Below, in pieces: positions 10,207-62,023 of a stretch of 64,000 nt of DNA. Positions within the stretch are counted from its first letter, which is position 1. Each line of letters opens with the position of its first letter. Origin of the DNA: Prostheceraeus crozeri. Its lineage: Eukaryota > Platyhelminthes > Polycladida > Euryleptidae. The stretch is taken from assembly GCA_907163375.1 (NCBI GenBank), contig CAJQUW010007090.1:372001-436000 (forward strand), written 5' to 3'. The notes under the pieces are model-generated. The model ran no database searches, had not been told where the DNA came from, and saw only the letters and a list, made by a program, of their open reading frames with translations. Position numbers and translations under genes: made by a program.

Positions 10207-10211
10207 ATTCT

Positions 10212-10509
10212 TGTTTTAGTCGAACAATAAAACAAATGCAAGTCGGATCAAGAGATGATTTTATTGATGAATTGCAAAGGTTTATATACAGAGGTTGGAA
10301 CACTTATGAGTGAACACAACTGGTGTCTTCATTTAAAGAAATTAAATAATTATATTCAAAAATTATGATGTCACAGTGCTTAGAAAATTCATTTAGAATT
10401 TTCTGGATTTTATTTAGAGATTTTTATCTCTTGAAATTATAACTTTGCGCGAACGCGCCAAATTCGAAATTTCGAGTTTCTACAAATTTTATTGTAACTT
10501 GCTGTTACA
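10212..10509 (-). repeat. Gypsy-1 3' LTR
   Basis: A 298-bp copy identical by eye to 15234-15531. It carries the same TATA-like and AATAAA-like signals on the minus strand as the other LTR. Confidence 0.93.
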
Positions 10510-10522
10510 ACTTCTTCCCATT
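10510..10522 (-). other. Gypsy-1 polypurine tract
   Basis: On the minus strand the bases just before the 3' LTR read AATGGGAAGAAGT, a purine run in the position where plus-strand DNA synthesis is primed. It overlaps the very end of the pol frame. Confidence 0.7.
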
Positions 10523-14552: not shown

Positions 14553-15233
14553 TGTAGTTTGAGGGTGTAGATCTTCGCAGGGTTGAATCTAAGGTCCTTA
14601 AATTTCCTTAAGTCCTTAAATTTTAATAAACCTTATGATCCTTAGATGTGGGTGTGTAAATTAGTAATGTCCTAGATCTTATACTAGGCCTCAGATCCCT
14701 AAAACTGATTTATATTAAGCCCTTACAGTGCAGTTCAGACTAGACTGGCTAGTGTGTTGTTGGCGTGTGTGGGACAGCACCGGACTCCGGATGGTGGCGG
14801 AGTGAAAGAATTAATTAACCGTACCGAGGTACTGAAGGAGTTTGAAGAAAGAAAGGATAGTTGGGGTGGGCGGAAAGTAAGTATGAATGCAATTTGAATT
14901 TCCTTTATGACCGGAAGGTCACCGCAAGGCCGGAAGAAGGCAGTAGATTGGCAGCAGAACTTCAAGACGAACAGGAAATTGCCAGACGATCCAGAACTTG
15001 ACGAATGAGCAGTATAGGCGAGTTCGACCTAGGAGCAGCAACAAGACTCCACGGTAGCGGCAACAGGGCGGCAGAAGACGGACCAAGGATACCAACACGG
15101 GCAGCACGATCAAGCCGTAGTATTAGGCACCAAAATTAGCAGCAGCAGCTCCAGTTGTCCACCATTCGTCAGTATGCTAGGCTATGCAAGGGCTGTACCA
15201 AGCAGGTAGGTAACTGCTCCGAGCGACGCCAGT
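14553..15233 (-). other. Gypsy-1 5' leader with primer-binding site
   Basis: About 680 bp between the 5' LTR and the gag-pol start. Two bases inside the LTR, the minus strand reads TGGCGTCGCTCGGAGC (15231-15216). This is complementary to a tRNA 3' end finishing in CCA, so it is the likely primer-binding site. Which tRNA is not determined. The remainder presumably holds the packaging signal. Short frames here are not supported as genes. Confidence 0.75.
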
Positions 15234-15531
15234 TGTTTTAGTCGAACAATAAAACAAATGCAAGTCGGATCAAGAGATGATTTTATTGATGAATTGCAAA
15301 GGTTTATATACAGAGGTTGGAACACTTATGAGTGAACACAACTGGTGTCTTCATTTAAAGAAATTAAATAATTATATTCAAAAATTATGATGTCACAGTG
15401 CTTAGAAAATTCATTTAGAATTTTCTGGATTTTATTTAGAGATTTTTATCTCTTGAAATTATAACTTTGCGCGAACGCGCCAAATTCGAAATTTCGAGTT
15501 TCTACAAATTTTATTGTAACTTGCTGTTACA
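15234..15531 (-). repeat. Gypsy-1 5' LTR
   Basis: A 298-bp LTR. Reading the minus strand, a TATA-like TGTATATAAACC (around 15300-15312) is followed by AATAAA around 15280-15285, giving a compact promoter and polyadenylation module. It sits only 34 bp inside the intron following the exon at 15571-15654. Confidence 0.93.
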
Positions 15532-15570
15532 ATTCTTTACAGCAATATAAAGTTTAAGTTGTTAACTTAC

Positions 15571-16785: not shown

Positions 16786-16787
16786 TA

Positions 16788-16927
16788 CGTGGTGTGATCC
16801 AAAATGTCCCGGACTAACCTACTTGCAGATAACCTGTGATAACGAATACTACTTCAGATGTAAATTTAGGTCTTTAAGGCATGAGAAATATGGTCGCCGA
16901 AATTTTTCCGGTCAGTTTTCTATTTTT
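16788..16927 (+). repeat. Mariner left TIR
   Basis: Inverted match of 18386-18525 with only one or two differences (TTTTTCCGG against TTTGTCCGG). Confidence 0.9.
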
Positions 16928-17084
16928 TCAAAATTTTCAAACATTTTTGTCTGAATTTCAAGATTTTCCTATAAATTCTAGCGATTTAGAATTAATATAT
17001 TTAGATTAACTTGACAGTTAAGCTATCACTAATAACCTGACTAATAATTAACGGAAAAACAAATGTTTTGTTCCAGAAAACAGT

Positions 17085-18140
17085 TTACTTTTCAATGTAT
17101 GAGCCGTTAGCATTCGTCACTTTTTGCCAACGAAGTCTCAATTCACAAAAAGCTTTATGAAAAAATTCTGGTGTCAAAGAATCAAAAAACTCAGTAACTG
17201 CATCCCGCAGTTCAACTGGCGATTCAAAGTGGTGTCCACGAAGATGCTTTTTGAGGAATCTAAACAGATAGAAATCACTTGGGGCCAAGTCAGGTGAATA
17301 AGGAGGATGGCTCAATAGTTGAAATCCGTTTCTCGTTAAGGCATTGGTTGTCTCCTGCGAGGTGTGAATCGGAGCATTGTCATGAAGCAAGTAGAGGGGA
17401 ATGTTTCGTGGCTTTCTTATTTTCTTCCTCGCTTCAGATAACAGATTGGAATAATATTCGCTATTGATTCTTACTCCTTTATCCGCAAAGTCAACCAGTT
17501 GGATTCCCGAAGCGTTCCAAAAGACCGTCAGCATCAACGACCGGCGATGTGATGTTCCGGATCGCATTTTCAAAGGGGCAGACTTGCCTGATTTTCGCCA
17601 CTCTGCAGATTCTCGCTTACTTTGAGGCAGATACAAACTTAAAGGTGTTTCATCCTCTGTAAGGATGCAGTTCAGAAACTGATCTCCGTGCATTTCGAGG
17701 AGATCCAAATTTGACTGTGCCGCCAGAAGTCTGTTCTCCTTCATTTCAGGTGACAGAAACTTCGGTACGAAACGTGATGCCAGTTTGCGATATCCAAGTC
17801 TTTCGATGATGTCATGACAGGAGTGATAACTGATTCGCAACTCTCTTGACAACTCACGGATGGTTATCCTTCTGTGTGCTGTAATCACTTCATCGCACTG
17901 ACTCGATTTCTCGTCCGGAATCTCCTGCGGCCGACCAACAGTTGAAAAATCTTGCTCCACAGATTGTCTTCCGCGTTTAAATTCGCTTATCCAGAAATAA
18001 GCAGTAGTTCTCGATGGAGCTTTGCTTCCATATGCCAGGCTTAATTCCTTTAGAATGTCACCATTAGCGAAGCCGCGGATCAGGAGGTATCGTATCACAC
18101 TGCGATATTCGACTGAAGACACGCTTGTCACATCCATCAT
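17085..18140 (-). CDS. Mariner transposase (351 aa, DD34D)
   Basis: Cut-and-paste transposase. The N-terminal half has a helix-turn-helix DNA-binding region (about 10-115), including a GRPQEI AT-hook-like linker near 69. The linker motif RFVPKFL (about 123-129) corresponds to the WVPHEL motif of the family. The catalytic triad is visible: Asp163 in LTEDET, Asp254 in HDNAPIHTS and Asp289 in YSPDLAPSDFYLF. There are 34 residues between the last two, which defines mariner DD34D. Length is typical of the family (about 345-355 aa). No stop or frameshift is seen. It lies between the inverted repeats with 157-245 bp of untranslated DNA on each side, upstream of gene 1. Confidence 0.92.
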   Translation of the reverse strand: MMDVTSVSSVEYRSVIRYLLIRGFANGDILKELSLAYGSKAPSRTTAYFWISEFKRGRQSVEQDFSTVGRPQEIPDEKSSQCDEVITAHRRITIRELSRELRISYHSCHDIIERLGYRKLASRFVPKFLSPEMKENRLLAAQSNLDLLEMHGDQFLNCILTEDETPLSLYLPQSKRESAEWRKSGKSAPLKMRSGTSHRRSLMLTVFWNASGIQLVDFADKGVRINSEYYSNLLSEARKKIRKPRNIPLYLLHDNAPIHTSQETTNALTRNGFQLLSHPPYSPDLAPSDFYLFRFLKKHLRGHHFESPVELRDAVTEFFDSLTPEFFHKAFCELRLRWQKVTNANGSYIEK

Positions 18141-18385
18141 GAAAACTGATAGAACAAAGAACCATCGTTGACACGGATTTCTTAATGAATGCGTGCTGAA
18201 TGAACTTCACTGATTGATATCGTAACACATGAAGCAATTAACAAAAGACGTGCAATATTCATGGCAAAGATATCCGTCAAATAAGGTACAAATCAAAATC
18301 AATCTAACTATAACAATAAGACAAATCGGATCTCGATCAATTCAGAAAATACAGAAATTCATGTTAAAATGTAAAAATATTTTTT

Positions 18386-18525
18386 AAAAATAGAAAACTG
18401 ACCGGACAAATTTCGGCGACCATATTTCTCATGCCTTAAAGACCTAAATTTACATCTGAAGTAGTATTCGTTATCACAGGTTATCTGCAAGTAGGTTAGT
18501 CCGGGACATTTTGGATCACACCACG
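18386..18525 (-). repeat. Mariner right TIR
   Basis: Inverted partner of 16788-16927, ending at the TA duplication. Confidence 0.9.
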
Positions 18526-18527
18526 TA

Positions 18528-45107: not shown

Positions 45108-46249
45108 TAGTTGGTGTGAAGTGAATACCAAGATTTAATTCTGGGTTTCCAAAGATAATTGTGATTTGCATAATTGTATCGCATTATTTCCAGATTCGCA
45201 TTATCACGATAAGAACAAGTTTTCGATTCGCGTGATTCGTTGATGTGTGATTCACACAGCAGGAATGTGTGTATTTACATTGACCCCAACATGAAGTAAT
45301 TTGCATAAGATCTTTCCTAACAAAATAATCTAATTTACTTATTTTCACATTTTCTCAAGTAAAAGTATATCATTTTTCATTCTCGGCCCGGACGCGTTTC
45401 TGTTCGATTATACCAGACCCGCATAATGCCCGTTGCACTTAGAAGTGTGATCACTCCTTAACCCAGAGATGGGTAATGTTCGCGGGTCAAGGGAAGCATT
45501 TTCAATAGGATTGTAATGGCAAATAAATCAAATACATCGATGCGCATCTAGTCGTACATTAATGCAAACTTAACGATTCAATAATTATCGCAACAAAATT
45601 TATGCAGAGCAACAGCTAACAGAAATCTTATTACAGATTTCATCTGTAGATAGCAGGCCAGACAGTTGCAAGACAGCTGATGAATGACAATCTCAATTCT
45701 ACGCCAGAATCCTGAGAATGAATATTACAGAGATAAGACATCTTTCAAGTGCAATTTGAAAGCAATGATTTCAAGAAGTATGTACATAGAACGTGGCCGG
45801 TTTCTGTGTTTACTAGTTGTCGTCGAACAACCTTATATAAATAAGACGATTAATTTTGAACTGCAACTAGCACTGAGCACTCTGTTATCACATTATGAAG
45901 TTTGCTGAGCTCATGTAGAGAAACATTGTTACCGTTTTACCGATTGCCGATATCTGCTTAATTAATTACAACATGCGTTTTTAGAATACAAACAATAAAA
46001 TAAGATCTAAGAAGTTTCAACTTTCTTAGATATTCATAACTTATGTGATAAAGATTTCATCAAAAGTGTGTCAAAATCAATGAGTTCATGTTGGTATCGT
46101 TCTGCATAATGGGTGATGCTATAGTTACGGGTTATTATTTTCTTAATATTCCCAAAACATATGTTTGAAAAATGTAAATGAAAAATGTGGATAAATTATA
46201 TTGTGAAAATAAATAAATGGTGCAAACAGCCCTCATAAGGACAGATGGT
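45108..46249. other. Non-coding stretch
   Basis: AT-rich, no gene or repeat recognised. Confidence 0.4.
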
Positions 46250-46510
46250 ACGTTCACAGTTATAAGACAGTCACAGCACCAACAGAGTCTCCAGATTCTT
46301 CCAGGACCACAAGCCGTGGTGATCACGTCCGCAGCAGTTCGATGATAGTTCGCACACAGAAGATAGGCTGCAACACCGTCAACGGCTCTCGCCGACAACT
46401 TCGCTTGGAGAGACCAGAATGCGTTAGCGGCCGTTGTTCATGCCGCGTTAAATACGTCTGTGAAGATTCGCTCACGGTCAGCTACCAATTGTTTGTTCAT
46501 CCATTGTCTG
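46250..46510 (-). pseudogene. Decayed retrotransposon gag-like fragment
   Basis: The minus strand encodes, across one frame change or stop, a segment like LQAKLSARAVDGVAAY followed by CANYHRTAADVITTACGPGR. The pattern of Leu-x-x-x-Leu-Ser-x-x-Ala and then a 'NY..A..ll...G' block recalls the DUF1759-type Gag of BEL/Pao and some Gypsy elements. It is short and broken. Assignment is by pattern only and could be wrong. Confidence 0.35.
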
Positions 46511-46657
46511 ATGACATGAGATGTCTACTGTCAGTCATGTACCGTAGATAGCTGACAAGCTGGACTTTTGCATGACATTGGAACTTGAAATGCATTCCGC
46601 GGAAAAGTTATTGCTCTAACAATGGAATGGAGATTGCTCTCACCAAAACAATAAAAC

Positions 46658-46978
46658 TGTCTGAATAAACCCTGTGTCATCATTAATTCAAGTTTGCGGA
46701 GCCAGGGTAACCAAAGGTCTTCGGTTGAGTAAAAACGTCATCTCATGCGTACGATGCATTTCGCTTGCCACCGGCAAGCATGGTCACGTTCTGAATTGAC
46801 AAATCATGTACAGACAAAATAAACGCTAGAAATTCCATGCATGATCAATAATCAACAAAGGTCAAAAAGATAAGTGTCCGAAGACTCTATGAAATCGATC
46901 TGTACAAAGTTACTACTCATTTTAGTCAAAAGTAAAATAAGGAAAAGTTAAAATGAAATGAAAGACAAAAATGAAAGT
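46658..46978 (-). repeat. Penelope 3' untranslated/pseudo-LTR, left end
   Basis: About 296 bp of spacer downstream of copy A, followed at the extreme left by about 25 bp that repeat the very start of the coding frame (ATGATGACACAGGGTTTATT...). The right end of the block lacks that 25-bp overhang. Confidence 0.85.
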
Positions 46979-49381
46979 CTAAAGCACTCCATTCCAAGCC
47001 GTACCGATATTGAAGTCACATTTGTTAACGCTGTTGTACTTCCTAGACCATAGTGATTCCTTGATGAGACGTCTACGATGAAACGGCTCCCGATCCAGCG
47101 TCTCGCAATGTTCCCAGTCGATTCCATGGCCGGTGTCAAGAACATGGGCGGCGACTTCTGAATGTGTAGCAACATTTCTCACGTTACGTCGATGTTCTTT
47201 CACACGTTCCTCCACCGTTCTCGAGCTCTCTCCCACATATGACCATCCGCAGCAGTCATCAGTACAGTTGAGGCGATAAACCACTCCGAACTGTTTGGGC
47301 TGTGTAGGTCTCTTCTTAACCAGCATATTCCTCAAGGTGGATACTGGTTTGTAAAAGGTCTTTATACCAAGTTTCTTCAGAGTACCTGAAATATTCTCTG
47401 CAAGTCGAGGGATGTATGGAATAATACATACATCAGCCACACTATTACCACCATCTTCGTCCTGTACATGCATATCACTGGATGTTGGAAGCTCAAATAC
47501 ACGCCTACTCTCACTTGAACTAAATCCATTCATCCGAAAAATTCTTTCCAAGTTACGGAGCTCACTGTCAAGTAATTCCGGAGAACAAATCGACCTAGCT
47601 CTGTGGCACATCGTCCGGACGAGTCCCTTGAAAACACTTGGATGATGACAAGACGAACGGTTTAGATATAAATTTGTGTGAGTTGGCTTTCTATACACTT
47701 GATAAACAAGCCCGCCTTCATTCTTCTGGATCAGGATGTCAAGGAAAGGAAGAGTCGAATCCACCTCAAGCTCCACAACAAACTGAATAGAAGGCCGCAG
47801 AGCGTTCAAAAACTCCACAAAGTCATTCAGTTCTTCCAGAGACAGAGTCCAGTGTACGATGATGTCATCCACGTAGCGATACCATAATTTAGGGAAATGG
47901 CGATTATGGTTGAGCGCTGACTCCTTAGCCACTTTCTCGAAATGATGCATATAAATGTTAGCCAAACTGCAGCTCAGACTACTTCCCATGGCTATACCGT
48001 CCGTCTGTAAATATAGATGGTCGCCAAATTGAAAGTATGAATGCTTCACACACATATACAATACACTGATGAACTCATCCACCGTCAAAGGACAAATCGC
48101 ACCAAAAGCATCGTCATTTCTTATTATGTCGGAAACCACCATCAATGATTCATCCAAAGGGACATTCGTAAATAAGGAGTTGATGTCCAAACTCAACAGT
48201 AAGCCATGATTCAAATCATCGATCGATCCCAACTTCTGTATCAAATCTGAGGAATCCTTGATATATGAAGGACCTTTAGTAGCGAAAGGACGCAAATATT
48301 CTGCCAACATCTTTGAGACCGGTGCCAAAAGCGATCCCAGTGTACTAATTATTAGACGAAGAGGATTGCCAGTCTTGTGCACCTTTGGCAGTCCGTATAA
48401 ATGTGGTATTTGGTAATGTGTCGGACACCACTTCAACATAGTTGGTCTGGATATTCGTCCGCTTTCCACTGCAGATTTTAAAAAACCATGAAGTTCTCTT
48501 CTCCATTTCTGCGAAGGATCTGTCGACAACCGCAAATAGGGACCTGTACAGATCAATTGCTGGAGTTTGTGATGATATTCTGTCTTGTTCATTATTACCA
48601 CGGCATTACCCTTGTCAGCAGGCAGGATGATTATATCATCATTACTTCTCAAGGTTTTGATTGCCAGAGATTCACCCCTCGATAGGTTCATCTTCCTGGG
48701 TGGCTTGGTCCTTCTGACGGCTGCAGATATTTCTGTTCGAGCCCAAGACTTCAAATCGTTAGGCTGCTTGTAGATCGCACTCTCCACACTCGCTATAATA
48801 TCACTGACAGGAATATGCTTAGGAGTAACGGCGAAGTTCAAGCCCTTGCTTAAAAGGCTTGTCTCAAATTCATTGAGTTCGTAATCACTTAAATTGATCA
48901 CAACATTTGATCCAGTGTCAGTCTCCACGGCTTCATCTTTTCCATAAAGATAGCGTAATCGACTTAAGCGTCTCTCCAGGTACTTAGAGTGGCCACATTC
49001 CGCTTGATTTCGACTCATAGACAGAAAATCCCGAATACGTTCATTGTCCTGCGAATCGCACACCATATGCAATAGACATGCACGGCGCGTTTTTAACTCG
49101 ATATGCAGTCGATCAAAGTTGCCTTTAAGACGTGACCTTTCCTTCTTGACCATCATATTGCCAACTTTAGATTGTAACTTTTTATCATGTCTGAACCGTC
49201 CAGGTAAAGAACACCAGAGAGACCGTGGAACCATTCCTTCAGTTGCACAACTTTGAAACAATTTCAAACGTGATTTAAGTTTTATTAATTCAATTTCCTC
49301 TTTGATAACTGTTCGGAAGATGAGAACACACCTGCTCCCGTAGGTGTCCGTCAAGTGTCTGAATAAACCCTGTGTCATCAT
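46979..49381 (-). CDS. Penelope-like copy A: reverse transcriptase + GIY-YIG endonuclease (800 aa, intact)
   Basis: This is the only copy with a completely open frame ending at the normal stop. It copies element RNA at a nicked target, using its own endonuclease. Residues 1-280: N-terminal region without known domain, containing the PADKGNAVVIMN block. RT: YGLPKVHKTGNPLR (about 340-355), motif A LLLSLDINSLFTNVP (about 397-411), motif B QTDGIAMGSSLSCSLANIYM (about 455-475) and catalytic YVDD at about 502-505. Then YRKPTHTNLYLNRSSCHHPS. The C-terminal GIY-YIG domain (about 697-790) has GVVYRLNC, SYVGESSRTVEERVKEHRR and a late Asn. It carries a unique Pro-to-Leu change in LRLIIST (the others have LRPIIST). 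Shares the HGFLKS and NDDAFG variants with copy B. Confidence 0.92.
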   Translation of the reverse strand: MMTQGLFRHLTDTYGSRCVLIFRTVIKEEIELIKLKSRLKLFQSCATEGMVPRSLWCSLPGRFRHDKKLQSKVGNMMVKKERSRLKGNFDRLHIELKTRRACLLHMVCDSQDNERIRDFLSMSRNQAECGHSKYLERRLSRLRYLYGKDEAVETDTGSNVVINLSDYELNEFETSLLSKGLNFAVTPKHIPVSDIIASVESAIYKQPNDLKSWARTEISAAVRRTKPPRKMNLSRGESLAIKTLRSNDDIIILPADKGNAVVIMNKTEYHHKLQQLICTGPYLRLSTDPSQKWRRELHGFLKSAVESGRISRPTMLKWCPTHYQIPHLYGLPKVHKTGNPLRLIISTLGSLLAPVSKMLAEYLRPFATKGPSYIKDSSDLIQKLGSIDDLNHGLLLSLDINSLFTNVPLDESLMVVSDIIRNDDAFGAICPLTVDEFISVLYMCVKHSYFQFGDHLYLQTDGIAMGSSLSCSLANIYMHHFEKVAKESALNHNRHFPKLWYRYVDDIIVHWTLSLEELNDFVEFLNALRPSIQFVVELEVDSTLPFLDILIQKNEGGLVYQVYRKPTHTNLYLNRSSCHHPSVFKGLVRTMCHRARSICSPELLDSELRNLERIFRMNGFSSSESRRVFELPTSSDMHVQDEDGGNSVADVCIIPYIPRLAENISGTLKKLGIKTFYKPVSTLRNMLVKKRPTQPKQFGVVYRLNCTDDCCGWSYVGESSRTVEERVKEHRRNVRNVATHSEVAAHVLDTGHGIDWEHCETLDREPFHRRRLIKESLWSRKYNSVNKCDFNIGTAWNGVL

Positions 49382-49676
49382 TAATTCAAGTTTGCGGAGC
49401 CAGGGTAACCAAAGGTCTTCGGTTGAGTAAAAACGTCATCTCATGCGTACGATGCATTTCGCTTGCCACCGGCAAGCATGGTCACGTTCTGAATTGACAA
49501 ATCATGTACAGACAAAATAAACGCTAGAAATTCCATGCATGATCAATAATCAACAAAGGTCAAAAAGATAAGTGTCCGAAGACTCTATGAAATCGATCTG
49601 TACAAAGTTACTACTCATTTTAGTCAAAAGTAAAATAAGGAAAAGTTAAAATGAAATGAAAGACAAAAATGAAAGT
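49382..49676 (-). repeat. Penelope inter-copy spacer (pseudo-LTR) between A and B
   Basis: A 295-bp untranslated segment nearly identical to 52116-52412, 54820-55114 and the two outer ends. It presumably contains both the promoter for the downstream copy and the 3' end signals of the upstream copy. It holds the same three-helix fold described for 55008-55064. Confidence 0.85.
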
Positions 49677-52080
49677 CTAAAGCACTCCATTCCAAGCCGT
49701 ACCGATATTGAAGTCACATTTGTTAACGCTGTTGTACTTCCTAGACCATAGTGATTCCTTGATGAGACGTCTACGATGAAACGGCTCCCGATCCAGCGTC
49801 TCGCAATGTTCCCAGTCGATTCCATGGCCGGTGTCAAGAACATGGGCGGCGACTTCTGAATGTGTAGCAACATTTCTCACGTTACGTCGATGTTCTTTCA
49901 CACGTTCCTCCACCGTTCTCGAGCTCTCTCCCACATATGACCATCCGCAGCAGTCATCAGTACAGTTGAGGCGATAAACCACTCCGAACTGTTTGGGCTG
50001 TGTAGGTCTCTTCTTAACCAGCATATTCCTCAAGGTGGATACTGGTTTGTAAAAGGTCTTTATACCAAGTTTCTTCAGAGTACCTGAAATATTCTCTGCA
50101 AGTCGAGGGATGTATGGAATAATACATACATCAGCCACACTATTACCACCATCTTCGTCCTGTACATGCATATCACTGGATGTTGGAAGCTCAAATACAC
50201 GCCTACTCTCACTTGAACTAAATCCATTCATCCGAAAAATTCTTTCCAAGTTACGGAGCTCACTGTCAAGTAATTCCGGAGAACAAATCGACCTAGCTCT
50301 GTGGCACATCGTCCGGACGAGTCCCTTGAAAACACTTGGATGATGACAAGACGAACGGTTTAGATATAAATTTGTGTGAGTTGGCTTTCTATACACTTGA
50401 TAAACAAGCCCGCCTTCATTCTTCTGGATCAGGATGTCAAGGAAAGGAAGAGTCGAATCCACCTCAAGCTCCACAACAAACTGAATAGAAGGCCGCAGAG
50501 CGTTCAAAAACTCCACAAAGTCATTCAGTTCTTCCAGAGACAGAGTCCAGTGTACGATGATGTCATCCACGTAGCGATACCATAATTTAGGGAAATGGCG
50601 ATTATGGTTGAGCGCTGACTCCTTAGCCACTTTCTCGAAATGATGCATATAAATGTTAGCCAAACTGCAGCTCAGACTACTTCCCATGGCTATACCGTCC
50701 GTCTGTAAATATAGATGGTCGCCAAATTGAAAGTATGAATGCTTCACACACATATACAATACACTGATGAACTCATCCACCGTCAAAGGACAAATCGCAC
50801 CAAAAGCATCGTCATTTCTTATTATGTCGGAAACCACCATCAATGATTCATCCAAAGGGACATTCGTAAAATAAGGAGTTGATGTCCAAACTCAACAGTA
50901 AGCCATGATTCAAATCATCGATCGATCCCAACTTCTGTATCAAATCTGAGGAATCCTTGATATATGAAGGACCTTTAGTAGCGAAAGGACGCAAATATTC
51001 TGCCAACATCTTTGAGACCGGTGCCAAAAGCGATCCCAGTGTACTAATTATTGGACGAAGAGGATTGCCAGTCTTGTGCACCTTTGGCAGTCCGTATAAA
51101 TGTGGTATTTGGTAATGTGTCGGACACCACTTCAACATAGTTGGTCTGGATATTCGTCCGCTTTCCACTGCAGATTTTAAAAAACCATGAAGTTCTCTTC
51201 TCCATTTCTGCGAAGGATCTGTCGACAACCGCAAATAGGGACCTGTACAGATCAATTGCTGGAGTTTGTGATGATATTCTGTCTTGTTCATTATTACCAC
51301 GGCATTACCCTTGTCAGCAGGCAGGATGATTATATCATCATTACTTCTCAAGGTTTTGATTGCCAGAGATTCACCCCTCGATAGGTTCATCTTCCTGGGT
51401 GGCTTGGTCCTTCTGACGGCTGCAGATATTTCTGTTCGAGCCCAAGACTTCAAATCGTTAGGCTGCTTGTAGATCGCACTCTCCACACTCGCTATAATAT
51501 CACTGACAGGAATATGCTTAGGAGTAACGGCGAAGTTCAAGCCCTTGCTTAAAAGGCTTGTCTCAAATTCATTGAGTTCGTAATCACTTAAATTGATCAC
51601 AACATTTGATCCAGTGTCAGTCTCCACGGCTTCATCTTTTCCATAAAGATAGCGTAATCGACTTAAGCGTCTCTCCAGGTACTTAGAGTGGCCACATTCC
51701 GCTTGATTTCGACTCATAGACAGAAAATCCCGAATACGTTCATTGTCCTGCGAATCGCACACCATATGCAATAGACATGCACGGCGCGTTTTTAACTCGA
51801 TATGCAGTCGATCAAAGTTGCCTTTAAGACGTGACCTTTCCTTCTTGACCATCATATTGCCAACTTTAGATTGTAACTTTTTATCATGTCTGAACCGTCC
51901 AGGTAAAGAACACCAGAGAGACCGTGGAACCATTCCTTCAGTTGCACAACTTTGAAACAATTTCAAACGTGATTTAAGTTTTATTAATTCAATTTCCTCT
52001 TTGATAACTGTTCGGAAGATGAGAACACACCTGCTCCCGTAGGTGTCCGTCAAGTGTCTGAATAAACCCTGTGTCATCAT
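49677..52080 (-). pseudogene. Penelope-like copy B: RT + GIY-YIG, one frameshift
   Basis: Nearly identical to copy A, but one extra A in the run at 50868-50871 splits the frame. The upstream part is 50848-52080 (410 codons before stop) and the downstream part is 49677-50855. The break falls just after RT motif A, so the catalytic domain is disrupted as written. Otherwise complete. It shares the diagnostic variants of copy A and has the usual Pro in LRPIIST. The indel is in a homopolymer and could be a sequencing or assembly artefact. Confidence 0.9.
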
Positions 52081-52101
52081 TAATTCAAGTGGTGAATGAA
52101 T
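52081..52101. other. Inversion junction of the Penelope block
   Basis: The leader of copy B ends at about 52090 (TTAATTCAAGT). An 11-base stretch GGTGAATGAAT follows, and then plus-strand sequence starts at about 52102 with GAATGGAGTGCTTTAG, the last 14-16 bases of the coding frame, leading into a spacer and copy C. The filler consists of GAAT repeats also found at the edge of both partners, pointing to template switching with slippage or microhomology joining. Confidence 0.75.
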
Positions 52102-52412
52102 GAATGGAGTGCTTTAGACTTTCATTTTTGTCTTTCATTTCATTTTAACTTTTCCTTATTTTACTTTTGACTAAAATGAGTAGTAACTTTGTACAGATCG
52201 ATTTCATAGAGTCTTCGGACACTTATCTTTTTGACCTTTGTTGATTATTGATCATGCATGGAATTTCTAGCGTTTATTTTGTCTGTACATGATTTGTCAA
52301 TTCAGAACGTGACCATGCTTGCCGGTGGCAAGCGAAATGCATCGTACGCATGAGATGACGTTTTTACTCAACCGAAGACCTTTGGTTACCCTGGCTCCGC
52401 AAACTTGAATTA
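52102..52412 (+). repeat. Penelope pseudo-LTR upstream of copy C
   Basis: Contains the last bases of a coding frame, its stop codon and a full 297-bp spacer. So copy C is preceded by the 3' end of a further truncated copy, as in the usual tandem Penelope form. Confidence 0.85.
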
Positions 52413-54819
52413 ATGATGACACAGGGTTTATTCAGACACTTGACGGACACCTACGGGAGCAGGTGTGTTCTCATCTTCCGAACAGTTATCAAAGAGGAAA
52501 TTGAATTAATAAAACTTAAATCACGTTTGAAATTGTTTCAAAGTTGTGCAACTGAAGGAATGGTTCCACGGTCTCTCTGGTGTTCTTTACCTGGACGGTT
52601 CAGACATGATAAAAAGTTACAATCTAAAGTTGGCAATATGATGGTCAAGAAGGAAAGGTCACGTCTTAAAGGCAACTTTGATCGACTGCATATCGAGTTA
52701 AAAACGCGCCGTGCATGTCTATTGCATATGGTGTGCGATTCGCAGGACAATGAACGTATTCGGGATTTTCTGTCTATGAGTCGAAATCAAGCGGAATGTG
52801 GCCACTCTAAGTACCTGGAGAGACGCTTAAGTCGATTACGCTATCTTTATGGAAAAGATGAAGCCGTGGAGACTGACACTGGATCAAATGTTGTGATCAA
52901 TTTAAGTGATTACGAACTCAATGAATTTGAGACAAGCCTTTTAAGCAAGGGCTTGAACTTCGCCGTTACTCCTAAGCATATTCCTGTCAGTGATATTATA
53001 GCGAGTGTGGAGAGTGCGATCTACAAGCAGCCTAACGATTTGAAGTCTTGGGCTCGAACAGAAATATCTGCAGCCGTCAGAAGGACCAAGCCACCCAGGA
53101 AGATGAACCTATCGAGGGGTGAATCTCTGGCAATCAAAACCTTGAGAAGTAATGATGATATAATCATCCTGCCTGCTGACAAGGGTAATGCCGTGGTAAT
53201 AATGAACAAGACAGAATATCATCACAAACTCCAGCAATTGATCTGTACAGGTCCCTATTTGCGGTTGTCGACAGATCCTTCGCAGAAATGGAGAAGAGAA
53301 CTTCTTGGTTTTTTTTTAAAATCTGCAGTGGAAAGCGGACGAATATCCAGACCAACTATGTTGAAGTGGTGTCCGACACATTACCAAATACCACATTTAT
53401 ACGGACTGCCAAAGGTGCACAAGACTGGCAATCCTCTTCGTCCAATAATTAGTACACTGGGATCGCTTTTGGCACCGGTCTCAAAGATGTTGGCAGAATA
53501 TTTGCGTCCTTTCGCTACTAAAGGTCCTTCATATATCAAGGATTCCTCAGATTTGATACAGAAGTTTGGGATCGATCGATGATTTGAATCATGGCTTACT
53601 GTTGAGTTTGGACATCAACTCCTTATTTACGAATGTCCCTTTGGATGAATCATTGATGGTGGTTTCCGACATAATAAGAAATGACGATCCTTTTGGTGCG
53701 ATTTGTCCTTTGACGGTGGATGAGTTCATCAGTGTATTGTATATGTGTGTGAAGCATTCATACTTTCAATTTGGCGACCATCTATATTTACAGACGGACG
53801 GTATAGCCATGGGAAGTAGTCTGAGCTGCAGTTTGGCTAACATTTATATGCATCATTTCGAGAAAGTGGCTAAGGAGTCAGCGCTCAACCATAATCGCCA
53901 TTTCCCTAAATTATGGTATCGCTACGTGGATGACATCATCGTACACTGGACTCTGTCTCTGGAAGAACTGAATGACTTTGTGGAGTTTTTGAACGCTCTG
54001 CGGCCTTCTATTCAGTTTGTTGTGGAGCTTGAGGTGGATTCGACTCTTCCTTTCCTTGACATCCTGATCCAGAAGAATGAAGGCGGGCTTGTTTATCAAG
54101 TGTATAGAAAGCCAACTCACACAAATTTATATCTAAACCGTTCGTCTTGTCATCATCCAAGTGTTTTCAAGGGACTCGTCCGGACGATGTGCCACAGAGC
54201 TAGGTCGATTTGTTCTCCGGAATTACTTGACAGTGAGCTCCGTAACTTGGAAAGAATTTTTCGGATGAATGGATTTAGTTCAAGTGAGAGTAGGCGTGTA
54301 TTTGAGCTTCCAACATCCAGTGATATGCATGTACAGGACGAAGATGGTGGTAATAGTGTGGCTGATGTATGTATTATTCCATACATCCCTCGACTTGCAG
54401 AGAATATTTCAGGTACTCTGAAGAAACTTGGTATAAAGACCTTTTACAAACCAGTATCCACCTTGAGGAATATGCTGGTTAAGAAGAGACCTACACAGCC
54501 CAAACAGTTCGGAGTGGTTTATCGCCTCAACTGTACTGATGACTGCTGCGGATGGTCATATGTGGGAGAGAGCTCGAGAACGGTGGAGGAACGTGTGAAA
54601 GAACATCGACGTAACGTGAGAAATGTTGCTACACATTCAGAAGTCGCCGCCCATGTTCTTGACACCGGCCATGGAATCGACTGGGAACATTGCGAGACGC
54701 TGGATCGGGAGCCGTTTCATCGTAGACGTCTCATCAAGGAATCACTATGGTCTAGGAAGTACAACAGCGTTAACAAATGTGACTTCAATATCGGTACGGC
54801 TTGGAATGGAGTGCTTTAG
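52413..54819 (+). pseudogene. Penelope-like copy C: RT + GIY-YIG, one frameshift
   Basis: Same architecture as copy A, on the plus strand. The frame breaks near 53565-53567, where TTT replaces TT (first part 52413-53582, second part 53566-54819), just before RT motif A. It shares with copy D a 3-base longer T-run around 53309-53317 (LGFFLKS instead of HGFLKS) and Pro in NDDPFG. The GIY-YIG domain and stop codon are intact. The frameshift is again at a homopolymer. Confidence 0.9.
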
Positions 54820-55114
54820 ACTTTCATTTTTGTCTTTCATTTCATTTTAAACTTTTCCTTATTTTACTTTTGACTAAAATGAGTAGTAACTTTGTACAGA
54901 TCGATTTCATAGAGTCTTCGGACACTTATCTTTTTGACCTTTGTTGATTATTGATCATGCAAGAATTTCTAGCGTTTATTTTGTCTGTACATGATTTGTC
55001 AATTCAGAACGTGACCATGCTTGCCGGTGGCAAGCGAAATGCATCGTACGCATGAGATGACGTTTTTACTCAACCGAAGACCTTTGGTTACCCTGGCTCC
55101 GCAAACTTGAATTA
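54820..55114 (+). repeat. Penelope inter-copy spacer (pseudo-LTR) between C and D
   Basis: A 295-bp spacer with small indels relative to the others (TTTTAAAC for TTTTAAC near 54849; GCAAGAATTT for GCATGGAATTT near 54960). Contains the ribozyme-like fold at 55008-55064. Confidence 0.85.
55008..55064 (+). ncRNA. Three-way-junction fold resembling a diverged hammerhead ribozyme
   Basis: An outer helix pairs AACGT (55008-55012) with ACGTT (55060-55064). Inside are a 7-bp hairpin GCTTGCC-GGT-GGCAAGC (55019-55035), then GAAA, then a 4-bp hairpin ATGC...GCAT (55039-55053). This is the helix order and GAAA spacing of a hammerhead. The box before stem II reads GTGACCAT instead of CTGATGA. If aligned as G-TGA-C-CA, positions 3 and 8 would be swapped from C-G to G-C, a pair-preserving change, with one extra base. 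The base after stem III is G, which canonical hammerheads do not cleave. The same fold is present in every spacer of the block. Confidence 0.4.
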
Positions 55115-57550
55115 ATGATGACACAGGGTTTATTCAGACACTTGACGGACACCTACGGGAGCAGGTGTGTTCTCATCTTCCGAACAGTTATCAAAGAGGA
55201 AATTGAATTAATAAAACTTAAATCACGTTTGAAATTGTTTCAAAGTTGTGCAACTGAAGGAATGGTTCCACGGTCTCTCTGGTGTTCTTTACCTGGACGG
55301 TTCAGACATGATAAAAAGTTACAATCTAAAGTTGGCAATATGATGGTCAAGAAGGAAAGGTCACGTCTTAAAGGCAACTTTGATCGACTGCATATCGAGT
55401 TAAAAACGCGCCGTGCATGTCTGTTGCATATGGTGTGCGATTCGCAGGACAATGAACGTATTCGGGATTTTCTGTCTATGAGTCGAAATCAAGCGGAATG
55501 TGGCCACTCTAAGTACCTGGAGAGACGCTTAAGTCGATTACGCTATCTTTATGGAAAAGATGAAGCCGTGGAGACTGACACTGGATCAAATGTTGTGATC
55601 AATTTAAGTGATTACGAACTCAATGAATTTGAGACAAGCCTTTTAAGCAAGGGCTTGAACTTCGCCGTTACTCCTAAGCATATTCCTGTCAGTGATATTA
55701 TAGCGAGTGTGGAGAGTGCGATCTACAAGCAGCCTAACGATTTGAAGTCTTGGGCTCGAACAGAAATATCTGCAGCCGTCAGAAGGACCAAGCCACCCAG
55801 GAAGATGAACCTATCGAGGGGTGAATCTCTGGCAATCAAAACCTTGAGAAGTAATGATGATATAATCATCCTGCCTGCTGACAAGGGTAATGCCGTGGTA
55901 ATAATGAACAAGACAGAATATCATCACAAACTCCAGCAATTGATCTGTACAGGTCCCTATTTGCGGTTGTCGACAGATCCTTCGCAGAAATGGAGAAGAG
56001 AACTTCTTGGTTTTTTTTTAAAATCTGCAGTGGAAAGCGGACGAATATCCAGACCAACTATGTTGAAGTGGTGTCCGACACATTACCAAATACCACATTT
56101 ATACGGACTGCCAAAGGTGCAAAAGACTGGCAATCCTCTTCGTCCAATAATTAGTACACTGGGATCGCTTTTGGCACCGGTCTCAAAGATGTTGGCAGAA
56201 TATTTGCGTCCTTTCGCTACTAAAGGTCCTTCATATATCAAGGATTCCTCAGATTTGATACAGAAGTTGGGATCGATCGATGATTTGAATCATGGCTTAC
56301 TGTTGAGTTTGGACATCAACTCCTTATTTACGAATGTCCCTTTGGATGAATCATTGATGGTGGTTTCCGACATAATAAGAAATGACGATCCTTTTGGTGC
56401 GATTTGTCCTTTGACGGTGGATGAGTTCATCAGTGTATTGTATATGTGTGTGAAGCATTCATACTTTCAATTTGGCGACCATCTATATTTACAGACGGAC
56501 GGTATAGCCATGGGAAGTAGTCTGAGCTGCAGTTTGGCTAACATTTATATGCATCATTTCGAGAAAGTGGCTAAGGAGTCAGCGCTCAACCATAATCGCC
56601 ATTTCCCTAAATTATGGTATCGCTACGTGGATGACATCATCGTACACTGGACTCTGTCTCTGGAAGAACTGAATGACTTTGTGGAGTTTTTGAACGCTCT
56701 GCGGCCTTCTATTCAGTTTGTTGTGGAGCTTGAGGTGGATTCGACTCTTCCTTTCCTTGACATCCTGATCCAGAAGAATGAAGGCGGGCTTGTTTATCAA
56801 GTGTATAGAAAGCCAACTCACACAAATTTATATCTAAACCGTTCGTCTTGTCATCATCCAAGTGTTTTCAAGGGACTCGTCCGGACGATGTGCCACAGAG
56901 CTAGGTCGATTTGTTCTCCGGAATTACTTGACAGTGAGCTCCGTAACTTGGAAAGAATTTTTCGGATGAATGGATTTAGTTCAAGTGAGAGTAGGCGTGT
57001 ATTTGAGCTTCCAACATCCAGTGATATGCATGTACAGGACGAAGATGGTGGTAATAGTGTGGCTGATGTATGTATTATTCCATACATCCCTCGACTTGCA
57101 GAGAATATTTCAGGTACTCTGAAGAAACTTGGTATAAAGACCTTTTACAAACCAGTATCCACCTTGAGGAATATGCTGGTTAAGAAGAGACCTACACAGC
57201 CCAAACAGTTCGGAGTGGTTTATCGCCTCAACTGTACTGATGACTGCTGCGGATGGTCATATGTGGGAGAGAGCTCGAGAACGGTGGAGGAACGTGTGAA
57301 AGAACATCGACGTAACGTGAGAAATGTTGCTACACATTCAGAAGTCGCCGCCCATGTTCTTGACACCGGCCATGGAATCGACTGGGAACATTGCGAGGTG
57401 CTGGATCGGAGCCGTTTCATCGTAGACGTCTCATCAAGGAATCACTATGGTCTAGGAAGTACAACAGCGTTAACAAATGTGACTTCAATATCGGTACGGC
57501 TTGGAATGGAGTGCTTTAGACTTTCATTTTTGTCTTTCATTTCATTTTAA
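55115..57550 (+). pseudogene. Penelope-like copy D: RT + GIY-YIG, C-terminus frameshifted
   Basis: The RT domain is fully open. One G is missing near 57408 (ATCGGAGCC where copy C has ATCGGGAGCC), and GAGGTGC replaces GAGACGC just before. The last 35 or so residues of the GIY-YIG domain are therefore replaced by a shifted reading that runs past the normal stop (57517-57519) to 57550. A private change gives KVQKTG instead of KVHKTG. It shares LGFFLKS and NDDPFG with copy C. The RT could work, but the endonuclease C-terminus is altered as written. Confidence 0.9.
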
Positions 57551-57811
57551 CTTTTCCTTATTTTACTTTTGACTAAAATGAGTAGTAACTTTGTACAGAT
57601 CGATTTCATAGTCTTCGGACACTTATCTTTTTGACCTTTGTTGATTATTGATCATGCATGGAATTTCTAGCGTTTATTTTGTCTGTACATGATTTGTCAA
57701 TTCAGAACGTGACCATGCTTGCCGGTGGCAAGCGAAATGCATCGTACGCATGAGATGACGTTTTTACTCAACCGAAGACCTTTGGTTACCCTGGCTCCGC
57801 AAACTTGAATT
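57520..57811 (+). repeat. Penelope 3' untranslated/pseudo-LTR, right end
   Basis: 292-bp tail of copy D, ending CTTGAATTA directly at the right copy of the 13-bp duplication. Lacks two bases near 57609 relative to the other spacers. Confidence 0.85.
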
Positions 57812-57867
57812 AAAACAATAAAACGCATAACAAAGCAAGAAGACAAACTGCCTAGCACACAACACTA

Positions 57868-58048
57868 TGTACTGAAAACCACGCATTAGAACCTTTGGAC
57901 AGTTGTAATTAGACAATGGCATTTAAATACGATACGGAACATAAATGAACAGAAGTCAGCAATCGAACCGAAGAAATAAGTCATGAGTCCAAATAGGCAG
58001 GCTGGACTTCCAATCACAATGCAGTAATTGTAAGTCCAAAACACAACA
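57868..58048 (-). repeat. Gypsy-2 3' LTR
   Basis: 181-bp copy. On the minus strand it is directly preceded by the purine tract at 58049-58064. Confidence 0.9.
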
Positions 58049-58058
58049 TTCTTCCCTC

Positions 58059-60575
58059 CTACCGGGAGGAATAGTTCAGCCTGTCAGGAGGCTTTGATCT
58101 CCGACTCGATCGTCTTGGTCCTGAATCCGATGGTGAATTCTGCACCCGGGAGTTTCTCGAATATTGAGAAGGCATTGATCGACCCGAGGTTTTCCGTAGT
58201 TGATCAAGATGCCGCATCCACCGAAAACCGTCTGTCGTGGTCACCTCGAACGTCCTTGAACCTCCGACTCGCGTGATGATACCGGAAGCCCATTTATTGG
58301 ATCCCCGATAGTCTCTTGCAAGAACATGGTCACCCAGATTGAGCTTCCGCATTGATTGACTTGAAGGCGGCGACTGTTCTTGATAACTCTTTACCCGATC
58401 CTCCACGCTTGGTCGTATCGCATCCAAGCGACTTCGAATTTGACGTTTGAACATCAGCATTGAAGGTGACTCTCCTGTCACAGCGTGTGGTGTAAGGCGA
58501 TATCGCAAAAGGAACCGAGCTAGAGATCGCTCGGAGTCGGGATCTTCGTCAGACCGTAAGGCTTCTTTGAGAGTCCTGACAAAACCGCTCCGCTTGACCG
58601 TTTGTTGCTGGGAAGTGAGGTGGTGATCGCAGATGCCGCACGTTCATTGATTCGAGCCATAATTGGAATGTTCTTGACGTGCTCCGTAGCATTTCGATTG
58701 TCTTTTCTGTAGTAATTGAATTCGTCTGGATCACTTCGGGCCATTTGCTATAGGCGTCTACACACACCAGGTACCAGTAGCCATTTAGTGGACCAGCATA
58801 GTCGATATGTACTCTTTCCCAAGGTTGAGACGGGAATTCCCAGGTTGCAGGAGAAGCAGGAGAAGGAATTGCTTGAAGTTGGCGGCATTGAGGGCAGTCA
58901 TTAACCAAGCGTTCTATGTCAGCCGTAATTCGGGGCCACCATAAATAACTGCGTGCGATTGCCTTCATGTTAACGATCCCTTGATGAGTCTCATGAAGCT
59001 CATTGAGTAATCTCCGCCGCAATGGTTCAGGAACAACAACTTGGATTCCCCTCAGAAGGCAGCCATCAACACAGGTCAACTCGTTTCGGTAGCGCTTGAA
59101 ATCTGCGTAGATAGGACTAATATGATTTGGCCAACCAGTCTGTACGAACACCAGTACTTGCCGTAAAATTGAATCTCTGGACGTTGCTGCACGGACATCC
59201 TTTGCTGTCACCGAGCTTGGATATTCCTCCAAAAAAAGCGATTGAACCACTTGATCATCTTCGAGATTGTCCAATTCTTCCAGTAGGGGAACCCGCGACA
59301 ACGCGTCGCAGTCACCATGGTCACGACTCTTCCTGTAGTGTATGTCGTAGGAGAATCCGGACATGAAGATCGCCCAACGCTGGATTCTGGCAGCAGCATG
59401 CTCTGGAATTGATCGGTCCGACCCGAATAGAGCGAGTAGAGGTTTGTGATCGGTATTGATCTTGAAATGATGTCCCAAGAGGTATTGGCGGAATCGCTTG
59501 AGACCGAAGATGATTGCCAAAGCCTCGCGCTCCAGCTGACTGTATCGGCGCTGGGTCTTCGTCATAGTCTTAAAAGCGAACGCAATTGGTCTTATGGCAC
59601 CATCGATTTCGTGTGAAAGAACGGCTCCAACCCCGTATGAAGATGCATCGCAGGATAAGACGATAGGAAGTTGAGGATTGAAATGGAGAAGAAATCCCGC
59701 ATTTGTTATCAATTCTTTGGCCTTGGAGACAGCTGCTTCTTCGTCCTTGGACCATTTCCATGGAACGCCTTTCCGTCGCAAGTTGTGCAATGGCTCGAGG
59801 ACTGTTGACATATTGGGCAGGAACCTTGAATAGTAAGTCAATAGCCCGATGAACGATTCGAGCTGTGTTCTGTCTCTTGGTGCAGGAGCATTCAGGATTG
59901 CTTCTATTCGCGATTTCAAAGGATGTAAACCATCTTTATCGATTCGATGGCCGAGGTATTCCACCGACTCTTCCATGAACCGGCACTTGTCTTTCTTGAG
60001 ACGAAATCCGACCTCTTCAAGGCGCTTGAATACTTGTTCCAGATTGTGAAGATGTTCGGGAGCATCTTTCCCCGTAACGATAATGTCGTCCAGGAAAACT
60101 TGAACACCTTGCAAACCATTAAGAGCAGCTTCAATGGTTCGTTGGAATATGGCAGGAGCTGACGAAATACCAAACGCAGCCGGAGATGCTGGAACAGGCC
60201 CATGTGCGTATTGATTGTCGTAAGTTCGGCAGATTCCTCGTCCAACTCTAATTGATTGTACGCCATTCGCATGTCTAGAGTTGAATAGTGGGTTCCTTGC
60301 CCGAGAGTTGCGAACAGATCTTCAATCCTTGGAATAGGAAATTGCTCGGTAGGTGACGACCGGTTCACCGAAACTTTGAAATCGCCACACAACCGAATAC
60401 TGTCATCTTTTTTAATAACAGGATGAATTGGTGTTGCCCAGTTAGAGTGCTTGACGGACTTCAGGATTCCCAACTTCACGAGCCGACCGATTTCTTCCTC
60501 CACTTTGTCTTTCAGAGCGTAAGGCAGCCGTCTTGCTTTGCAGAACCTTGGGATTGCATCGGGCGATTTAAGAAT
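58059..60575 (-). pseudogene. Gypsy-2 pol (reverse transcriptase, RNase H, integrase), disrupted
   Basis: Recognisable in three frames. RT begins just after the TGA at 60576-60578, in the same frame as gag (60503 down to about 60177), with SNWATPIHPVIKKDDSIRLC and YSTLDMRMAYNQL. A missing base near 60177 moves the reading to the next frame, where VFLDDIIV (catalytic box), FLGHRI-type thumb sequence, RNase H (LSCDASSYGVGAVL) and the integrase zinc finger (HQGIVNMKAIARS...CPQCRQLQ) follow. The integrase core has HIDYAGPLNG, but the stretch that should hold the second catalytic Asp (SDNG block) is deleted. It then continues at HFPATNGQAERF. An extra base at 58581-58584 shifts into the C-terminal frame (58059-58508), which is Ser/Arg-rich. 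Confidence 0.88.
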
Positions 60576-61817
60576 TCAAACTTTGCCTTGATTGTAACGG
60601 CCCAACCTTTCATCGAACAGAGCTGTGTGCTGGACCAAGAGATCAGATAATTGAGATTGGCAATTGAAGAATTGTAGAATTGCTGTTCTCCATTCCTTGC
60701 CGAAGAAGCTGTTCAACCAGTTTCGACCGAATAGCGGAGAATGCCCAGTCGTAGATACGTATATTGGGAGCTGCTTGACCATCGACCGTACTTCCACAGA
60801 GACTGTCACCTTCCCACATAGTGTCACTGGTGTACCCGTGTATGCGAACAATTGATCACCAGGTTGTTGAAGCGGAATTGAGGGAAAGTTACGTTTAAAC
60901 CAGGTCTCGGGTACCACGCTTGTAACGCTTCCCGAGTCTAGCTCCATCTCTACCATTTTTCCGTTAATGCGTGTTGCAATATGGAGGGGCTCATTGTAGT
61001 TGCCTGAAACGCTATTGATGTGGTCACTCGTGACTTGATTGGTTCGAGCTTGTTCTTGAAATTGCTTGGAACGGCAAACGGCTTGAAGATGACCTTTCTT
61101 TTGACATGAGCGGCAAATTGCTTCCTTGAAAGGACAGTCTTTCCTCCAATGACCGGTTTTACCACAACCATGACATGGCCGCGGCGCATTACATGTCTTT
61201 GCACCGCCTTGACGATTGGCCTTCACGTTGTGATCTGGCTTGGGCCGGAACTGCACCTTGTGAACATTAGAAGGCTGCATCTGAGTTTGAATTTCATTGG
61301 ATTGACAATGCGAGGTCTCCCAAGTATTCGCGAATTTCATGGCATCAGCGTAATTGATAGTCTCCACCCGAAGGAGCTCTGAACGTAAATCCGGATCTCG
61401 TAACCCGAACGTGAATTGATCGCGCATTGCTTCCTCATTTGAGTCTGGAAGCAACTTATCGCTGAATTTGCAGAACCTTGCCCCTTTCTCTACACGAGCA
61501 GCAAAGTCGCGAATCGATTCTCCAGAGTCTTGCCGCAACTGCCTGAAGAGAAACCTTTCATGTAATGCTGAAGGTTGCTTGTCATAGAACTTTTGAAGTG
61601 CTGATTTCAGCTCTGCAAGCGATTTCTTTGCTGGATCAATTGGTCTGAAGTGATTGAATAGGCGCTCATACGCTTCTTCACCGATCAATGACAACCAGAC
61701 ATCCACTCGTTGTTTGTCCTGTATTTTGTTTGCTCGGAAGAATGCTTCTAATCGTGCGTAATATGAATCGAAATCACATGTTGAAGTGAGAGCGGCTATT
61801 GTTCCGTACTTTGGCAT
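60576..61817 (-). CDS. Gypsy-2 gag and protease (413 aa)
   Basis: The intact first frame starts at the ATG about 8 bases after the primer-binding site. Capsid-like region about 1-170, then two zinc knuckles: CHGCGKTGHWRKDC (canonical CCHC) and CRSCQKKGHLQAVC. An aspartic protease follows with active site ELDSGSVTSVV near 292 and flap/end LFGRNWL near 370. The frame ends at TGA (60576-60578), and RT continues in the same frame immediately afterwards. So the TGA is either a nonsense mutation, an error, or a leaky stop separating Gag-Pro from Pol. Confidence 0.9.
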   Translation of the reverse strand: MPKYGTIAALTSTCDFDSYYARLEAFFRANKIQDKQRVDVWLSLIGEEAYERLFNHFRPIDPAKKSLAELKSALQKFYDKQPSALHERFLFRQLRQDSGESIRDFAARVEKGARFCKFSDKLLPDSNEEAMRDQFTFGLRDPDLRSELLRVETINYADAMKFANTWETSHCQSNEIQTQMQPSNVHKVQFRPKPDHNVKANRQGGAKTCNAPRPCHGCGKTGHWRKDCPFKEAICRSCQKKGHLQAVCRSKQFQEQARTNQVTSDHINSVSGNYNEPLHIATRINGKMVEMELDSGSVTSVVPETWFKRNFPSIPLQQPGDQLFAYTGTPVTLCGKVTVSVEVRSMVKQLPIYVSTTGHSPLFGRNWLNSFFGKEWRTAILQFFNCQSQLSDLLVQHTALFDERLGRYNQGKV

Positions 61818-61842
61818 GACAATTACCTCGTCGCCAGTGCTA

Positions 61843-62023
61843 TGTACTGAAAACCACGCATTAGAACCTTTGGACAGTTGTAATTAGACAATGGCATTTA
61901 AATACGATACGGAACATAAATGAACAGAAGTCAGCAATCGAACCGAAGAAATAAGTCATGAGTCCAAATAGGCAGGCTGGACTTCCAATCACAATGCAGT
62001 AATTGTAAGTCCAAAACACAACA
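61843..62023 (-). repeat. Gypsy-2 5' LTR
   Basis: 181-bp copy identical by eye to the 3' LTR. On the minus strand it is followed by TAGCAC and then the primer-binding site. Confidence 0.9.

Follow-up and report, generated by a model that had tools for sequence, protein, structure and literature searches.

A head-to-head block of about four Penelope-like units inside one 13-bp target duplication in Prostheceraeus crozeri, probably the product of a single two-sided insertion

A stretch of 64,000 nt from the polyclad Prostheceraeus crozeri (GenBank assembly GCA_907163375.1, contig CAJQUW010007090.1, positions 372,001 to 436,000 of the forward strand; hereafter the window) harbours at window positions 46658-57811 a head-to-head block of ~4.1 units of one 2.7-kb element. 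Judged from its sequence this is an endonuclease-bearing (EN+) Penelope-like element (PLE), and the block was probably formed by one insertion, through target-primed reverse transcription (TPRT) started from the two strands of a staggered cut. It consists of a minus-strand arm of 2.01 units and a plus-strand arm of 2.12 units, the sense 3' end of each arm pointing outward, and is flanked by two copies of the 13-mer AAAACAATAAAAC. The assembly comprises 2.05 Gb in 14,165 contigs, and the structure described is that of the assembled sequence alone.

A repeat search placed the 13-mer at 46645-46657 and at 57812-57824, directly outside both ends of the block and nowhere else in the window, which bears out an earlier reading made from the letters of the window only (the sequence-only reading), according to which a perfect 13-bp repeat brackets the block. 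The reverse complement of AAAACAATAAAAC is absent from the whole window. Bases 46655-46657, which fall inside the minus-strand alignment 46655-46693, are part of the target site duplication (TSD). No match of a 13-mer was seen among 200,000 random position pairs, any shared 12-mer occurred in 14 of 50,000 random pairs of 40-base stretches, and the flanks to the left and right of the block are unlike each other. Four separate or nested insertions were considered and rejected, as the block as a whole has just one 13-bp duplication around it and its units join directly.

Alignment of the units, read in sense with position 1 set at ACTTGAATTAATG, showed that the minus arm covers unit positions 1-2699, 1-2699 and 1-36, and the plus arm 2399-2699, 1-2699, 1-2699 and 1-9. 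On the minus strand the outer sense 3' end is a 36-nt tail (46658-46693, positions 1-36), followed by the tail-proximal unit (46694-49391) and the junction-proximal unit (49392-52090), the frame of the latter being split by a 1-base insertion at position 1220. Between 52090 and 52102 the two arms face each other head to head across 11 bp of filler (52091-52101). The plus arm begins with a partial upstream unit (52102-52402, positions 2399-2699) holding the end of the open reading frame (ORF) and the pseudo-long terminal repeat (pLTR), continues with a first complete unit (52403-55104) in which a 1-base insertion at position 1159 splits the frame and a second one (55105-57802) in which a 1-base deletion at position 2302 shifts the C-terminus of the frame, and finishes without a tail at position 9 (ACTTGAATT, 57803-57811). 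The units are 99.5-99.9% identical to each other and the unit alignment revealed no scar at the seams between them.

Among the four frames of the block the only one fully open belongs to the tail-proximal minus unit (46979-49435, minus strand, 818 aa from stop to stop). A second frame, at 55061-57550, is open over 829 aa, but the deletion has replaced its last ~36 original amino acids, C-terminal to the GIY-YIG match. The sequence-only reading, which saw complete or nearly complete frames in four copies, is corrected in this respect, and its count becomes ~4.1 units. The reverse transcriptase (RT) domain RVT_1 is matched above the cut-off (E = 1.6e-8 for 46979-49435, and 7e-9). The Pfam GIY-YIG match in 46979-49435 (residues 716-757) is below the cut-off with E = 0.007. 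In an alignment of seven sequences the RT residues YVDD and ADKG are invariant, as are the GIY-YIG residues Y719, Y732-x-G734, R743 and H747, and one aligned relative, P0112, itself exceeds the GIY-YIG cut-off. Despite the sub-threshold Pfam score, the C-terminal GIY-YIG endonuclease is recognised by the invariant residues together with P0112. A protein search gave 542 proteins at E ≤ 0.001 among 7,993 scored candidates, the best match having 43% identity at 97% query coverage, and pLTR and tandem or partial tandem organisation is present in the window and at the loci C13150, C11919 and C6982.

To place the block among its relatives, insertions of the same family (family A) were collected with a 333-nt pLTR query, for which 40 of 374 candidates were scored, giving 43 matches. 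Family A was read at 29 loci, some not to both ends, representing 28 insertions since C3717 and C5407 share a single PLE insertion together with its flanks, in opposite orientations, and are thus duplicate or allelic contigs of the assembly. In 18 of the 28 insertions, the window included, there are two opposed arms of measurable length, and in all 18 a tail (reaching position 34-45) is found on exactly one arm, the other having a no-tail end. Wherever both the end and the duplication could be read this no-tail end lies near position 7-9, ~27 nt before the tail end at ~36 (the no-tail end of C3493 was deduced from the match limits of the pLTR search). Outside the 18 are C9669 (a small rearranged copy) and C3717/C5407 (with a second arm of ~10 nt), which both obey the one-tail rule, C9839, which has a divergent 83% piece opposite, and C4226, C11851, C12457, C13867, C13150, C11919 and C6982, where a single orientation only is seen.

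Direct repeats of at least 11 bp were found at the ends of 21 of the 27 tested family-A loci (26 insertions; 13/17 plus 8/10), C3493 and C9839 having been left out of the test, and 17 of the 21 are 12-14 bp long. These lengths may take in bases of the element ends, and the longest three (20, 18 and 17 bp) clearly do so or include a local repeat. The six loci below 11 bp are C1518 (8 bp), C13150 (6 bp), C6982, C4226, C13867 and C3717 (9 bp); C5407, the duplicate of the last, has a 12-bp repeat. At the arm junctions of the 18 pairs there are overlapping bases in nine cases, filler in seven and a blunt join in two. The 13-bp duplication of the window block and its tail and no-tail ends are hence those of one ordinary family-A insertion, and for this reason the block is best read as one two-sided target-primed insertion and not as four, in agreement with the proposal of the sequence-only reading that it entered the genome as one unit.

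Under this reading one 3' end of the target would prime cDNA synthesis at unit position ~36, giving the tail, and the other at ~9, each cDNA would cover about two units of a multimeric RNA and finish in the pLTR, near an RNA 5' end, both cDNAs would then be joined head to head with the 11 bp of filler, and fill-in of the stagger would yield the 13-bp duplication. The sequence itself displays the single duplication, the outward sense 3' ends, the one tail and one no-tail end, the arm-specific variants and the scarless seams, from which the staggered double cut, the two RNAs, the multimeric transcripts and the end joining are inferred. In LINE-1 twin priming, too, both target strands prime and inverted segments come to lie inside one TSD, but there synthesis starts at different places along one RNA, whereas the arms of the block both begin close to one 3' region of the element.

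The same plan is repeated in a sister family (family B), which is ~70-76% identical to family A where alignable and has a unit of 2677 bp, at the loci C12301, L016, L017 and L019. At C12301 (G000:C12301:8238-19746; L014/L015) head-to-head arms of 3.33 and 0.95 units were found, and at L017 the arms are 1.32 and 0.86 units. In L016 and L017 the long end is near position 60 and the short end near 33, 26-28 nt apart, to be compared with 36 and 9 in family A. The short side of C12301 stops at 0, and a target duplication was looked for at this locus and none was found.

The unusual feature of the window block is that its arms have two units each. Three differences are common to both plus units (903 A>T, a TTT insertion at 906 and 1284 G>C) and absent from both minus units and from other loci (6 of 6 for 903 and 906, 9 of 9 for 1284), and all four block units share a G at position 970 where the other loci have C (6 of 6). 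Most simply, these variants suggest a pair of closely related templates with a length of two units or more each. The earlier suggestion of a replication mode producing long multimers is only partly supported, the 2+2 shape being made up of two-sided priming, which is common in family A, and of templates two units long. Of the examples then given, repeated template jumping in the form of random end-to-end jumping is disfavoured because the seams between units are without scar.

Five family-A arms exceed one unit, and what they have upstream of whole units measures 0 (window minus arm), 30 (C11919), 169 (C6982), 248 (C13150) and 301 nt (window plus arm) of 2699, and with a uniform stop the probability of all five being at most 301 nt is p = 1.8e-5, a test on five arms only, from three loci obtained with an ORF query not reaching the upstream remainder and the two window arms. 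Family-A arms thus consist of whole units plus up to one pLTR, as expected of reverse transcription that begins at the first start site of a longer RNA, or at its second or third, and proceeds to an RNA 5' end in the pLTR. A clustering of arm 5' ends at 2397-2460 was not used as an indication of the RNA 5' end, as a search with the pLTR is biased towards arms of ~290 nt or more.

Within an insertion the arms resemble each other in length more than permuted pairs do (median absolute log ratio 0.197, p = 0.0003, 18 pairs), also without the window (p = 0.006) and without the window and a cluster at 600-850 nt (12 pairs; p = 0.007 for the median and 0.048 for the mean), as though synthesis of the two cDNAs ended together or met a common limit of the template. 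By rank the lengths correlate weakly, with a Spearman coefficient of 0.47 (p = 0.049, 18 pairs), 0.37 without the window (p = 0.14) and 0.18 without the cluster as well (p = 0.57). Matched lengths, among them the near-equal arms of several other insertions (760/760, 702/712 and 730/713), and the general likeness of arm sequences outside the window would fit self-priming or fold-back synthesis, in which one arm is copied from the other, a mechanism put forward for the Penelope of Adineta vaga (PMC3846280). For the window block we regard this as extremely unlikely, because the three differences of the plus arm are present in both of its units and in neither minus unit; the same observation disfavours the second-strand synthesis on an inverted copy that had been suggested earlier. 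In addition the arm 5' ends are ~300 nt apart in the block, the length correlation is weak, and fold-back leaves the recurrent no-tail end near position 9 unexplained.

Several results weigh against one event with two multimeric templates. Private changes, neighbouring ones being counted as one event, amount to eight in the plus arm and two in the minus arm (one-sided p = 0.055), and five of the eight are or include indels, some of which may be assembly errors. No family-A locus with at least two units besides the block was found (23 of 23 candidates scored, the counts being lower bounds), and a source of the two-unit transcript was therefore not found either. When arm differences were surveyed in 16 pairs, excluding the window and C5649, the arms differed at no more than four places in 12 of them, and in eight a locus-private allele was common to both arms, so that it is the window block alone that points to two different RNAs. 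Few of the differing places have both alleles at other loci. Among these few, the ones in C8872 seem to reflect alternative placement of gaps, as do the insertions in C13951 and C1518, which leaves single substitutions at 2323 (C5571) and 2605 (C13951, C1518). Different sources for the two arms as a general rule were thus unsupported. In family B, L019 has long tails on both arms, L018 is irregular, and the two long arms have remainders of 867 and 873 nt, which share almost one 5' end and exceed those of family A as well as a 300-nt pLTR. At C12301, 13 of the 27 variable places distinguish the plus arm from every minus unit, in nearly all cases through a change on the plus side; at the remaining 14 the units vary among themselves, and three patterns conflict (549, 1157-1162 and 1570), which indicates that recombination or gene conversion may have acted there.

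Such exchange might also have shaped the window block, if a head-to-head insertion with about one unit per arm had its arms doubled later by unequal exchange or gene conversion between direct repeats. The differences common to both plus units and the failure to find a two-unit source would both be explained in this way, and the mosaic variants among the C12301 units fit it. We nevertheless consider it unlikely, as the doubling must have struck both arms independently and the plus arm would have gained 11 changes against 2 in the minus arm in equal time (one-sided p = 0.011, a difference to which assembly errors could add).

In the pLTR of the first complete plus unit a hammerhead-like hairpin, GTGACCATG-stem II-CGAAATGCATC, was located by hand at 55011-55045 (plus strand, from unit position 2606 on). 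The form GTGA-N-CATG-stem II-CGAAATGCAT is conserved with compensatory stem changes in four PLE lineages of the genome and was read, besides the window, at L014-L019, L022 and L023. Hammerhead motifs in the pLTR are reported for PLEs, though not for all. A canonical hammerhead ribozyme was not recognised in the block, Rfam giving no match in 45500-59000 (E up to 1) or in 54800-55200 (E up to 10). The core has a G at position 3 and a C at position 8 (in a core numbering of our own), the same exchange as the C3G/G8C introduced into a ribozyme in PMC11167929, where partial activity remained.

The hairpin brings up another origin of the two-unit arms, namely that a monomeric circular RNA, freed by the hammerhead-like ribozyme, was reverse-transcribed as a rolling circle to give each of them. 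The units inside each arm are uniform at the three diagnostic places and joined without scars, the conserved hairpin exists, and circular RNA templates giving tandem cDNA have been proposed for retrozymes, with PLEs as candidate mobilisers (PMC7229834). Set against this are the lack of an Rfam match and the G3/C8 core, the PAc ribozyme mutants of Anolis, which still insert RNA in vitro (PMC11167929), and the same-arm units of C12301, which differ at sites also variable at other loci and whose conflicting patterns are unlike the product of one circle. We accordingly rate the rolling circle as quite unlikely for the block. Multimeric RNA, circular RNA and pLTR-mediated strand transfer are each candidate sources of the long templates.

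The number of units or the inverted join could also have been created in assembly, a view to which the private indels of the plus arm and the presence of at least one insertion as duplicate contigs (C3717/C5407) lend something. With two flanks that differ, a duplication of the length usual in the family, the one-tail rule obeyed and phased differences between the arms, such an artefact is very unlikely, and a two-sided target-primed insertion is the reading retained.

The single-TSD, two-sided insertion of the block matches published PLE biology in A. vaga and Anolis, and the block is a new, extreme and unusually large case of this known insertion habit. An optional tail of 30-40 nt at one 3' end and short TSDs of variable length are features of EN+ PLEs that family A also displays. 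According to PMC11167929 the PAc protein of Anolis cleaves and extends both strands, with RT start at two adjacent internal sites that define a tail, and its authors propose transcripts of several units and saw no difference in start site between strands in vitro. The Poseidon/PAc PLE of Anolis carolinensis described there is like the window element in its frame with RT and C-terminal GIY-YIG, its tandem units and its tail of 30-40 nt set by two adjacent RT start sites. At the pLTR-ORF junction it has a ribozyme motif, to which in the window a hammerhead-like hairpin corresponds, with a G3/C8 core as a difference. A further difference is that PAc start sites are indifferent to strand in vitro whereas here there is one end of each kind per insertion (18/18). 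An A. carolinensis protein, P0034, is 34% identical to the window frame over 95% of the query.

For the A. vaga Penelope PMC3846280 gives head-to-head as the most frequent arrangement, an optional tail on one inverted pLTR and TSDs of 8, 9 and 10 bp, some copies having none, and favours self-priming. Head-to-head pLTRs, one-sided tail, short TSD, partial tandems and long tandem or inverted structures are shared with the window block; two complete units in both arms are not, and self-priming misfits the arm-specific variants. Retrozymes (PMC7229834) have a hammerhead motif and tandem units but are short and non-autonomous, unlike the window element. Neither a 2+2 block nor a strict one-tail rule was found described in the literature searched, which included PMC8969392 in part and few subscription papers.

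The window contains other mobile elements. A Ty3/gypsy-type element at 57865-62023, 40 bp from the PLE block, has RT, RNase H and an integrase zinc finger on the minus strand and identical terminal repeats of 184 bp. An apparent long terminal repeat (LTR) retrotransposon lies at 10211-15537 with repeats of ~305 bp that are 99.7% identical and, in our reading, a single gag-pol-like frame of 1355 aa (minus strand, 10521-14588). At 16786-18527 an open frame of 373 aa (minus strand, 17085-18206) that we read as resembling a mariner-type transposase is situated between inverted repeats of ~160-180 bp with 92-96% identity.

The question of how PLEs come to form tandem and inverted copies has no settled answer, self-priming having been proposed for A. 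vaga and a purified protein extending both strands having been described. Tentatively, and with rather more doubt than confidence, the observations may be extended to PLEs in general: integration would normally be a two-strand, two-template TPRT with its own start site on each strand, ~27 nt apart, cDNAs of similar length and long templates leading to symmetrical multimers, and the 2+2 block would be the record of two RNAs in one integration complex. The genome offers a natural series, in which each insertion has a single tail, the ends are offset by ~27 nt in both families, duplications are of ~13 bp and one block is arm-divergent, and this amounts to concrete predictions for an in vitro PLE system. 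It also explains how one event can leave behind four nearly complete copies, which would otherwise be taken for as many insertions.

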